From an uncultured Clostridia bacterium (GTDB taxonomy: Bacteria > Bacillota > Clostridia > Oscillospirales > Ruminococcaceae): a stretch of 64,000 nucleotides of DNA. Within the stretch, counting starts at the first letter, position 1. Each line of letters opens with the position of its first letter. Under the pieces are notes generated by a model. That model had not been told where the DNA came from. It worked only from the letters and a program-made list of their open reading frames with translations, and made no database searches. The stretch covers positions 1 through 64,000 of the forward strand of contig CANQUJ010000012.1 in assembly GCA_947627005.1 (NCBI GenBank). Direction: 5' to 3'. A program made the position numbers and the translations under genes. This document shows, one piece after another, positions 3,952 through 6,318 of this stretch.

Positions 3952-5394
3952 ATGGCTAAAAATGAAAAACTTGTCGCCTCGATAACCTCGATGGACGAGG
4001 ATTTTGCGCAGTGGTACACCGACATTGTAAAAAAAGCGGAGCTTATCGAATACACCTCGGTCAAGGGCTGTATGGTGATCCGCCCTTACGGCTATGCGAT
4101 TTGGGAGAATATGCAGAAGATTCTGGACTCTAAGTTCAAAGAGCTCGGACACGAGAACGTCTGTATGCCGATGTTCATTCCCGAAAGCCTGCTGAACAAA
4201 GAAAAAGACCACGTCGAGGGCTTCGCGCCCGAAGTCGCGTGGGTAACTCACGGCGGAAACGAAAAGCTTGAAGAGCGCCTCTGCGTCCGCCCGACTTCCG
4301 AGACTCTTTTCTGCGAGCACTACGCCAACATCGTCCACAGCTACCGCGACCTTCCAAAGCTTTATAACCAGTGGGTCTCGGTCGTAAGATGGGAGAAGAC
4401 CACCCGGCCGTTTTTGCGCTCGCGCGAGTTTTTGTGGCAAGAGGGTCACACCATTCACGCCACCGCCGAGGAGGCAATCGAAGAGACCGAGAGAATGTTA
4501 AACGTATACGCCGACTTCTGCGAGCAGTCCCTCGCGATGCCGGTAGTCAAGGGCAAAAAGACCGAGAGCGACAAGTTCGCCGGCGCGGTATCCACCTACG
4601 CCATCGAGGCGCTTATGCACGACGGCAAGGCGCTTCAGGCCGGAACCTCTCACTATTTCGGCGACGGCTTCGCAAAGGCTTTCGGAATCACCTATACCGA
4701 TAAAAACAACACCGTTCAGGTCCCGCACCAGACCTCTTGGGGGGTCACCACCCGCCTTATCGGCGCGATCATAATGACCCACGGCGACGACAACGGCCTT
4801 GTTCTTCCGCCCGCCGTGGCGCCGATACAGGTAGTTATAATCCCGGTCGCGCAGCACAAAGAGGGGGTCCTTGAAAAGGCGAACGAGCTTTATAACGAGC
4901 TTAAGGCCGCCGGAATAAGAGTCAAGCTCGACGACTCGGAGCAGTCGCCGGGTTGGAAATATTCGGAATACGAGATGAAAGGCGTTCCGCTTAGAATCGA
5001 GATCGGTCCGAGGGATATCGAAGAGGGGCACTGCGTGGCGGTCGAGCGGCACAACCGCAACAAGACCTTTATCCCCCTCGGCGAGCTTGTAGAGCGCGTA
5101 AACGAGCGGCTTAAGGCGGTTCACGACGGAATGTATCAAAAGGCGCTCGAAAATCAGCAGAGAAGGACCTACGCCTGCAAGTCGATCGACGAGATAAACG
5201 CGGCCCTCGCCGAAAAGGGCGACGGCTTCGTCAAGGCGATGTGGTGCGGCAGCGAAGAGTGCGAGAAAAAGGTCAAAGAGCTCACCGGCGCCGGTAGCCG
5301 CTGCATACCCTTCGAGCAGGAGCATATCGATGACAAATGCGTTTGCTGCGGCAAGCCCGCCGAATGTATGGTAATCTGGGGAAAAGCCTATTAA
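3952..5394 (+). CDS. proS: Prolyl-tRNA synthetase (short, eukaryote/archaea-like type)
   Basis: This class II aminoacyl-tRNA synthetase of 480 residues charges tRNA-Pro with proline. Its length and its C-terminal zinc-type Cys cluster ([10 protein letters not shown] ... [18 protein letters not shown]) match the type 3 ProRS, which lacks the bacterial editing insertion. Class II motifs are visible: motif 2 as [12 protein letters not shown] with the following [22 protein letters not shown], and motif 3 near [13 protein letters not shown]. The terminal Tyr is typical of the type. It starts at ATG 3952 after AAAGGGAG and ends at a strong terminator (5404-5432). It shares a promoter with the small membrane protein upstream. 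Confidence 0.95.
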
Positions 5395-5403
5395 ATGTAA
5401 AAA

Positions 5404-5432
5404 AGCCCTTGATACGTTCAAGGGCTCTTTTA
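5404..5432 (+). terminator. Intrinsic terminator after proS
   Basis: AGCCCTTGA (5404-5412) pairs with TCAAGGGCT (5418-5426) over a 5-base loop and is followed by a T-rich run. The next promoter begins two bases later. Confidence 0.85.
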
Positions 5433-5433
5433 A

Positions 5434-5462
5434 TTGACAAAAATATCAGGTTATGATAGAAT
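5434..5462 (+). promoter_or_regulatory. Strong promoter of the small hydrophobic peptide mRNA
   Basis: Perfect TTGACA (5434-5439), a 17-bp spacer, and TAGAAT (5457-5462) preceded by TGA, giving an extended -10. It predicts a leader of about 120 nt before the ATG at 5591. The leader holds a hairpin at about 5477-5499 that begins with CCGCTTT and ends with AAAGCGG. Confidence 0.75.
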
Positions 5463-5590
5463 AGCCGAGAGGAGACCCCGCTTTTATGCGAATAAAGCGG
5501 AAAACGGCGTGGCGCTGAAATGCCCTTCGGGGAATTCACCCATTGCTTGTACATCGCCCGAGGGAGTAAGTAGCCGAGGGAGGTATGTGC

Positions 5591-5689
5591 ATGACAGCTT
5601 TTCTTGAAATTGTCGCCGACGTTTGCAGCATCATAAGGTTCGTTTTAGACCTGTTGATATACATATCGAAGCGCGAAGATAAAAAGTGA
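5591..5689 (+). CDS. 32-residue hydrophobic peptide, candidate type I toxin
   Basis: ATG 5591 is preceded by GAGGGAGG with 7-base spacing, one of the best ribosome binding sites in the window. The peptide has a short hydrophilic start, a central hydrophobic helix broken by Asp, Arg and Asp (residues 4-25), and a charged KREDKK end. Membrane peptides of 25-60 residues with this plan are the toxins of Firmicutes type I systems such as TxpA, BsrG and Fst. The stop codon overlaps the first base of a hairpin (5689-5715), and a convergent consensus promoter lies 100 bp downstream on the other strand. An in-frame ATG at 5585 is too close to the ribosome binding site. I see no direct proof of toxicity; it may be a membrane regulator or a chance ORF. 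Confidence 0.6.
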   Translation: MTAFLEIVADVCSIIRFVLDLLIYISKREDKK

Positions 5690-5776
5690 GCCGTTTGTCT
5701 GACACACAAGCGGCTCTTGTCAGTATAATCTGACATTTGTTCCTTGCCGTTCAGCGACCCGTCGGGTCTCCTCGCT
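5681..5776 (-). ncRNA. Predicted antisense RNA over the 3' end of the peptide mRNA
   Basis: A transcript from the promoter at 5783-5810 should start near 5776, run leftward, and stop at the hairpin 5689-5715, which is followed on this strand by five T (5685-5681). The RNA would be about 95 nt. It would be fully complementary to the 3' untranslated region and stop codon of the peptide mRNA, the same geometry as RatA/txpA and SR4/bsrG in Bacillus. A 66-codon frame starting at 5736 on this strand would run through the terminator and is not considered real. Confidence 0.55.
5689..5715 (-). terminator. Hairpin terminator of the antisense RNA, shared by convergent transcripts
   Basis: AGCCGTTTGT (5689-5698) pairs with ACAAGCGGCT (5706-5715) over a 7-base loop with one G-T pair. 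On the minus strand it is followed by ACTTTTT. On the plus strand a second small stem, TGTCAG (5718-5723) with CTGACA (5730-5735), is followed by TTTGTT and may finish the peptide mRNA. Confidence 0.65.
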
Positions 5777-5782
5777 ACTTAT

Positions 5783-5810
5783 ATTATACCACACATTTAA
5801 TCTTTGTCAA
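5783..5810 (-). promoter_or_regulatory. Perfect-consensus antisense promoter
   Basis: Read on the minus strand: TTGACA (5810-5805), 16 bp, and TGG-TATAAT (-10 at 5788-5783). Both hexamers match consensus exactly with an extended -10, and no coding gene needs a promoter in this direction. Confidence 0.8.
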
Positions 5811-5832
5811 GCGCTTTGCGGAAAGGCTTAAA

Positions 5833-6318
5833 GTGAAAAAATTATCAAAATCGGCAAAGGGCAAGATTTATATAATAATCTGCTTTTTGGCCGCAATTAT
5901 TTTCTGCATACTCTGGCTTTCGACCAAAATCGACATCAACAAATATATCAAGTGGAACCGCCTTTACTACGAGACCCATCTTTCCTCGGCGGCGGATTCC
6001 CTTGAAAAATACGTTTCGGGAGGAGATATCGCCGACTGGAACGCCGCGGCAGAGGATTTTCACGCATACGCCGTTTTAATGACCGAATCCGCACTTCGGA
6101 TCGACCGCAACCCGAATATGAAAGGGGCGGACCCTTTCGTTGCAAAGGCCTGCTATTCGGCCTCGGAGGCTATGCTCATCAACCGGGGCGAAACGCTTTC
6201 GCATGCCGAGGAGATACTTTCGGCGCTGCGGCTTTTAGAGAAGGACGAAAACAGCCCCGAGGCGGCGAAGATTTTAGAGGAAATAGCCGAGAGCGCCCCC
6301 GGCGGCGCGGAAGAATGA
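5833..6318 (+). CDS. Single-pass membrane protein of unknown function
   Basis: This is a 161-residue protein with a Lys-rich start, one transmembrane helix (about residues 11-31), and an exported or cytosolic helical domain of about 130 residues rich in Ala, Glu and Ser. No known family is recognised. GTG 5833 is chosen because GGAAAGG lies 6 bases upstream; the longer open frame would run back through the antisense promoter. No clear dedicated promoter is seen, so transcription may come from the peptide promoter at 5434 by read-through. A strong terminator follows at 6326. Its closeness to the peptide/antisense locus may be chance. Confidence 0.7.
   Translation: MKKLSKSAKGKIYIIICFLAAIIFCILWLSTKIDINKYIKWNRLYYETHLSSAADSLEKYVSGGDIADWNAAAEDFHAYAVLMTESALRIDRNPNMKGADPFVAKACYSASEAMLINRGETLSHAEEILSALRLLEKDENSPEAAKILEEIAESAPGGAEE

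Follow-up and report, generated by a model that had tools for sequence, protein, structure and literature searches.

What is encoded between proS and a gene for a small membrane protein, where two promoter-like sites point towards one another across a very short hydrophobic reading frame, is the question raised by this locus. It occupies positions 5434–5815 of the window, by which we mean the whole stretch of DNA analysed, 64,000 nucleotides in length. Judged from its sequence, the locus is very probably a chromosomal type I toxin–antitoxin-like module of a new family that would work most like par/Fst; the family is apparently undescribed and apparently spread across many Clostridia. The reading draws on convergent promoter-like sites, a Shine–Dalgarno (SD) sequence followed by a peptide ORF with its stop codon built into a shared terminator, a putative antisense gene, the same motif at the 5′ end of both predicted RNAs, and the joint conservation of these elements, which are arranged as follows.

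3952–5394, plus strand: proS, the upstream neighbour, found in 31/31 genomes of the genus.
5434–5462, plus strand: promoter of the toxin-like mRNA, TTGACA-17-TAGAAT with a TG-extended −10 (promoter scan, 11/12).
5471–5477, plus strand: GGAGACC, the first arm (X) of the toxin mRNA's 5′ motif, with a same-sense copy in the antisense RNA and counterparts in the mRNAs of relatives.
5478–5500, plus strand: hairpin insert (predicted fold) that splits the mRNA 5′ motif into its two arms, variable among relatives.
5503–5517, plus strand: second part of the mRNA 5′ motif, AACGGCGTGGCGCTG, matching GACGGTTGCC elsewhere (motif comparison).
5523–5566, plus strand: predicted leader hairpin CCCTTCGG/CCGAGGG, ending in an SD-like GAGGGAG without a start codon.
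5576–5583, plus strand: SD sequence GAGGGAGG, 7 nt before the ATG and predicted to fold against the early coding region.
5591–5689, plus strand: ORF of the toxin-like peptide MTAFLEIVADVCSIIRFVLDLLIYISKREDKK, with its TGA stop at 5687–5689 and a second in-frame ATG at 5585.
5678–5776, minus strand: antitoxin-like antisense RNA of about 95–100 nt, its ends placed from promoter and terminator.
5688–5716, both strands: shared terminator stem-loop GAGCCGTTTGT/ACAAGCGGCTC, with a T-run on the minus strand.
5718–5735, both strands: hairpin TGTCAG/CTGACA in the middle of the antisense RNA, possibly a second terminator for the mRNA; the stem sequence varies among relatives.
5754–5771, minus strand: predicted 5′ hairpin of the antitoxin, GG-A-GACCC-GAC-GGGUC-G-C, with an A·G mismatch.
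5783–5810, minus strand: promoter of the antitoxin-like RNA, TTGACA-16-TATAAT with a TG-extended −10 (promoter scan, 12/12).
5833–6318, plus strand: gene for a small membrane protein with a GTG start, the downstream neighbour, which also flanks the locus in genomes G028, G015, G022 and G020.

A preliminary description of the window had proposed two facing consensus promoters, a structured leader of about 120 nt, a ribosome binding site with a 32-residue hydrophobic peptide bearing a charged tail, and a minus-strand RNA of about 95 nt that ends in a hairpin beside the peptide stop. Each element was recovered at the locus: the plus promoter (5434–5462) scores 11/12 and the minus promoter (5810–5783) 12/12, some 122 nt separate the likely +1 from the ATG at 5591, the SD sequence (5576–5583) and the ORF (5591–5689) are both in place, and the terminator stem overlaps the stop codon, its 5′ arm on the plus strand starting within the TGA. 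The convergent 3′-overlap geometry is also as proposed, the putative antisense RNA covering the 3′ end of the mRNA. Seven promoter-like sites fall between 4800 and 6500, against 1.5 (sd 1.3) in shuffled sequence. Assuming that promoter sites are independent, 0.14 convergent pairs 150–450 bp apart with both members at ≥11/12 would be expected in the 64-kb window, where a single pair occurs, and 0.98 at ≥10/12, where there are two, both of them this locus. The antisense RNA has three predicted hairpins and a fold that beats 200/200 shuffles (z −3.2); the mRNA fold stands out less (z −1.8), 7/200 shuffles folding as well. The 32-residue peptide reaches a hydropathy of 2.2 over 15 residues and carries a net charge of +2 in its tail.

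Locus-like DNA is present in 6/31 genomes of the genus, compared with 31/31 for proS. Four of these genomes have the peptide (G000, from which the window derives, G028, G015 and G004), and two, G022 and G020, the antisense RNA only. Searching with the peptide in 99 genomes, its own included, returned seven matches at E ≤ 1, four real (E ≤ 5.2e-8) and three due to chance (E 0.29–0.89). The peptide frame is under purifying selection: the six pairs formed by the four same-genus loci gave dN/dS values of 0.19, 0.32, 0.59, 0.26, 0.61 and 0.22, which runs counter to the outcome that the preliminary description had named as refuting, a frame without conservation. Both promoters and the hairpin are retained alongside the peptide, the co-conservation for which the preliminary description had asked, with the plus promoter at 11/12 in G028 (L093) and G004 (L101) and at 10/12 in G015 (L109). 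The proposal of a type I toxin–antitoxin locus thus gains support from a small hydrophobic ORF, opposed by a putative antisense RNA gene, that is conserved in relatives. The interval from proS to the next gene holds, in G004, a complete pair and a further copy with just the two ends of its toxin gene left; in G022 it holds one, and in G020 two, antitoxin genes without a toxin, adjoining a different pair that belongs to a second family (below). The window copy is the sole A-type copy in its own genome (E 2.8e-14; next match E 0.5).

The family extends well beyond the genus. A covariance model built from eight antitoxins (R1) found multicopy loci with a related peptide in another genus (G127, G220); in the family it matched 36/395 genomes at E ≤ 0.1, of which 14 were read, five proving real and, of the nine more, only L060 (G083). 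When a genome collection was scanned for the antisense −10 box together with its hairpin, 33 stretches were recovered. The shared terminator is present in 28 of them; the five that lack it (L104, L114, L115, L116 and L119) are taken as chance. The records are of uncultured Clostridia, Clostridiales, Oscillospiraceae, Candidatus Caccousia avicola, Anaeromassilibacillus sp. An200 and Evtepia gabavorous. A viral collection held two stretches with the antisense pattern, one with the leader pattern and none with the window-type hairpin. The genome collection, the two viral stretches and the window together supplied 38 distinct antisense copies, the basis of a second model, R2, which matched 17/394 genomes of the order and 14/391 of the class (the window's own genome in each). 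Thirteen and eleven of these, respectively, were real and four and three false, G037, G572, G611 and G767 (order) and G952, G973 and G1086 (class) being chance terminators on inspection; the marginal R2 matches inspected (L140–L143, L172, L174, L170 and L171) have no 5′ hairpin and are taken as chance terminators. One class-sample match, G1071 (L169), is an antitoxin without a toxin frame. A regular expression for the motif was not used as a criterion, since it missed the true loci L139 and L146–L148. Toxin frames lie opposite the RNA under 13 family labels (f1, f2, f13, f14, f17, f18, f24, f36, f40, f42, f43, f55 and f92). Anaeromassilibacillus sp. An200 carries a complete copy (L111) and is a possible test organism, and in E. 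gabavorous KLE1738 (L123) an antitoxin and the end of a toxin are present on a cut contig.

Across these relatives the antitoxin comprises a 5′ hairpin of the form GG-A-RACC..GGYY-G-CC with a recurrent A·G mismatch, a middle hairpin and the terminator. The antisense promoter scores ≥10/12 in 36/38 copies (the exceptions being L098 and L126), the conservation of −10 box and hairpin being by construction, as the query selected for both. The middle hairpin averages 6.1 Watson–Crick pairs over the 38 copies, as opposed to 2.6 in shuffles, and has at least six pairs in 29/38, as opposed to 8.8% of shuffles; there are 25 distinct stems, and in 4/38 copies the script found none. Neither the collection scan nor the R2 search used the toxin promoter, mRNA motif, leader, SD or ORF as a query, yet these recur: the mRNA 5′ motif lies upstream of an ORF in 23/38 copies, 21 of which have a toxin promoter at ≥10/12 (not L092+2826 or L103, and the motif of L103 may be chance). 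In the mRNAs of relatives the motif is split by an insert that varies; next come the leader stem, the true SD and the ORF, whose stop lies within the terminator stem. In an alignment of 28 of 40 pattern matches (A4, from which seven chance, four window-genus matches and L146 were excluded), seven of the eight pairs of the analogous leader stem show changes on both sides, a value reached by 0/500 shuffles; the number of further pair types is not exceptional (69/500 shuffles). Within this covarying hairpin, 5′ of the true SD, lies an SD-like run, GGAAUGGAGGCG (L125, 485–602; alignment A4). The enclosed run might be a decoy or a standby site.

The peptides themselves share a CSI...YI..K.K pattern between the window and toxins of other families, for example MEALSFLGDLCSIAGLIFAVYVYIVSVRKEK and MNTLTLLGSVCSIAGVILTIAIYIKSNKKK. 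At the start position of 36 toxin loci we find ATG in 13, ATT in 8, ATA in 5, ATC in 4, TTG in 3, GTG in 1 and other codons in 2, the last being L109 (with an in-frame GTG upstream) and L168 (start ambiguous); L118 was left out of the count, its upstream stretch being identical to that of L117. AUU, AUA or AUC hence replaces AUG in 17/36 (for example L096, L108, L125, L161 and L162), which are not independent observations because the loci are related. In all 17 the codon lies 7–11 nt past the core of a strong SD; L125, L099, L102 and L129 have an in-frame GTG touching or overlapping the SD, and L139 an in-frame ATG near its SD. This pattern suggests near-cognate initiation at many of the predicted toxins, and that some tiny membrane peptides escape annotation. 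The frames of L146 and L118 run past the terminator without a stop and may be broken or mis-sequenced.

A striking property of the locus is a motif, GGRRACC...GACGGYYGCC, found at the 5′ end of both the toxin mRNA and the antitoxin, in the same sense, and varying in concert. The preliminary description had remarked on a short purine-rich piece recurring near both RNA 5′ ends and at the ribosome binding site. The mRNA and antisense copies stand, the repeat being kept in 4/4 same-genus toxin loci (runs GAGGAGACCC, GAGGAGACCC, AGGGAACCC and AGGAGACCC); the third copy is not conserved, and that part of the claim is unsupported, since the run at the ribosome binding site is 8 nt long in the window alone (TAGCCGAG) and 4–6 nt in the other three loci. 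In the window genus the second part of the mRNA motif pairs poorly with the first arm (4/7). Over 31 loci, antisense and mRNA copies from one locus show 0.87 differences in 14 positions, as opposed to 1.83 when partners are permuted (0/5000), and 0.75 as opposed to 1.32 without the window genus (0/5000); possible trans pairs between the copies number 11.45 of 14 against 11.25 permuted (31 loci; 0/5000), in a table read by hand, with the second arm of L148 aligned by eye and with permutations that ignore kinship. L135 and L147 have GGAAGCC..GGCUGCC in both RNAs. The first arm of the mRNA could pair with the second arm of the antisense RNA at 5–6 of 7 positions in 31/31 loci, as follows from both RNAs sharing the hairpin. 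The energies of 5′–5′ duplexes were no better than those of shuffled leaders (19 loci, 200 approximate dinucleotide shuffles each); at no locus were as few as 10/200 shuffles as good, the lowest values being 14 (L093), 18 (L099) and 25 (window). Why a toxin mRNA and its antitoxin should begin alike becomes a concrete question that can be tested. The motif is real, and it may serve to exchange arms, to bind a shared factor or to protect the 5′ ends; that the matching hairpins are functional in regulation is a tentative proposal, to which we incline slightly less than to its opposite.

A similar sharing of 5′ ends is seen in a second, unrelated toxin family, the pair that adjoins the lone A antitoxins of G022 and G020 and has a 23-residue peptide, MEELILI(V/I)VLAFIILEIFKTIKK. 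DNA matches to it occur in 18/395 genomes of the family, the window's own included, many over a short stretch only. In ten complete pairs (L182, L183, L186, the first of L193, two in L194, L195, the first of L196, L014 and L028) the mRNA and the antisense RNA share a run of 8–12 nt at their start, partly by construction, as the script sought GCARRGAK at both ends; the count omits the lone antitoxin of L193 compared with its neighbour's mRNA, the second pair of L196, and L184. In the distant L186 both 5′ ends read GCAGGGATACC. A twin 5′ motif is thus seen a second time, in toxins unrelated to the first. Other features of the second family, whose pairs lie beside an A locus or apart from one, are an SD within a C-rich/G-rich hairpin and a shared GTAACCGCC-type terminator (L013 about 1668–1900, L014, L182, L183, L186, L195 and L196). 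The window genome has, outside the window, two second-family pairs in tandem in L194 (G000:C5:26700-27500) and a pair plus a lone antitoxin in L193 (G000:C11:18900-19700). A THF riboswitch (Rfam match) lies near the second-family locus L184, at 2782–2883. A broader picture would be a class-wide type I family of Clostridia in which matching 5′ hairpins regulate beside the 3′ overlap, through an arm-exchange heteroduplex or competition for one RNA-binding factor, with the rule holding in two unrelated toxin families and many AUU, AUA or AUC starts hidden from gene callers; we regard it as plausible, though not the likelier outcome.

Taken as a toxin–antitoxin module, the locus would operate as follows. 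Both RNAs would be transcribed, and the peptide would insert into the cell's own membrane and be toxic if over-made. The mRNA leader would delay translation through the folded SD. The antisense RNA, which has the better promoter, would make its first contact with the mRNA at the terminator region, where the two are perfectly complementary, and the duplex would be degraded or remain untranslated. The matching 5′ hairpins may either swap arms, giving a second point of contact, or be recognised by a single shared factor.

The same architecture would also suit a non-toxic small membrane protein under antisense control, a regulator or a stress protein. Its chromosomal site beside proS fits such a role, as do the phage and plasmid queries that found no match and the one viral contig with the leader pattern. 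Association with mobile elements as a rule was rejected on these queries: DNA of L125, the window and L117 had no match in phages, DNA of L125 and L160 none in plasmids, and an L165-type peptide none in either. Against a benign product, the distribution is patchy (6/31 in the genus; 13 and 11 real matches in the two wide samples), which together with tandem and multi-copy arrays fits tight control of something harmful, as do loss of the peptide with the RNA kept, near-cognate starts and a folded SD. We think a regulator or stress protein unlikely; the patchy occurrence is also a point against the toxin–antitoxin reading.

At least 11/38 antisense copies have no toxin ORF (L092 first, L094, L095, L097, L098, L101 second, one in L102, two in L105, L112 and L120; L106, L122, L123 and L126 are partial or cut by contig or stretch ends), and the RNA may thus have other roles. 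Lone antitoxins, some beside remnants of deleted toxins, are found at L012 (about 1905–2100), L085, L086, L087, L090, L091 and L060. The extreme case would be a minus-strand RNA acting mainly in trans, as an sRNA, with the peptide ORF incidental; it would account for antitoxin-only copies (G022, G020, G083 and others) that retain promoter, hairpins and terminator, promoter and hairpins being features for which the query selected. It accords poorly with the conservation of toxin frame, promoter and leader wherever these are present, with the toxin tail or leader remnants beside some lone RNAs (L101 second copy, L092 first copy), and with the loss of the promoter from the lone copy L090, and we consider it very improbable. 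That promoter-like and ORF-like sequences came together by chance, as convergent promoter-like pairs do in AT-rich gaps, is refuted by conservation across families; the 0.14 pairs expected also count against it, and its likelihood is negligible.

The toxin–antitoxin reading being preferred, it remains to place the module among known systems. Rfam gave no match at gathering score across the window; the matches at the locus with E ≤ 5 were two to SpF51 over the proS terminator and one to ylbH over 5395–5502 (E 1.8; 13.9 bits, the gathering score being 50). Over 25 related loci there were six Rfam matches, none covering the loci. Neither Pfam nor NCBIfam matched the window peptide or its relatives at cut-off, and the suggestion that the family is new is strengthened by this lack of a model in any of the three collections. 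Sub-cut-off Pfam listings of relatives are Phage_holin_2_2, Hol_Tox, IncE and FeoB_associated. Fst_toxin (PF13955) matched none of the peptides and nothing in the genome over cut-off, but 0/14 control genomes had a match over cut-off either, which makes the control a weak one; Hol_Tox (PF16935, TxpA/BsrG) failed to match the window peptide and had nothing over cut-off in the genome, with 2/14 controls over, and L117 reached E 0.069, below cut-off. Four LQD/LQE-type relatives (L107, L108, L121 and L125) weakly resemble the PHROGs ‘holin’ profile phrog_920 (E 1.4e-4 to 0.066), covering less than half of its 67 positions; the window peptide is unmatched. Literature searches found no paper on the family of the 5434–5815 locus, one large earlier in silico survey being outside their scope.

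The preliminary description had likened the geometry to that of two Bacillus subtilis systems, txpA/RatA and bsrG/SR4, whose toxin mRNA and antisense RNA converge and overlap at their 3′ ends, as here. We know of no twin 5′ motif in either. The convergent 3′ overlap holds; the closest architecture is that of par/Fst, and not of those two systems alone, given a stop codon at the shared terminator and relatedness of the 5′ parts.

In Clostridia few type I systems are described, according to PMC6563280, and an apparently unannotated type I-like family there would be of interest. Compared by description only, the CD2517.1/RCd8-type modules of Clostridioides difficile have in common with the present locus their occurrence in Clostridia, the convergent overlap and a lysine-rich tail; their toxins are described as having 50–53 residues (47 in two prophage modules), several being prophage-linked (PMC6563280).

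For Fst/Ldr peptides, PMC7472228 and PMC8147318 give a signature of a W between transmembrane helix and charged tail and a (P/D/S/T)XXXG motif, the W being absent from founding Fst itself; the window peptide contains no W and no G, and so lacks both marks. With the par/Fst system of Enterococcus plasmid pAD1 and its Fst/Ldr chromosomal relatives, as set out in PMC7472228, PMC3543317 and PMC8147318, the locus shares convergent promoters, a bidirectional terminator, a membrane peptide of about 30 residues with a charged tail, a predicted mRNA stem sequestering the SD, and a second region of relatedness in the 5′ parts of the RNAs. The par/Fst repeats lie over the start codon (PMC7472228, PMC3543317 and PMC8147318), whereas the repeats described here sit tens of nucleotides before it, at the 5′ end of the mRNA, and, unlike in par/Fst, both RNAs bear the motif in the same sense.
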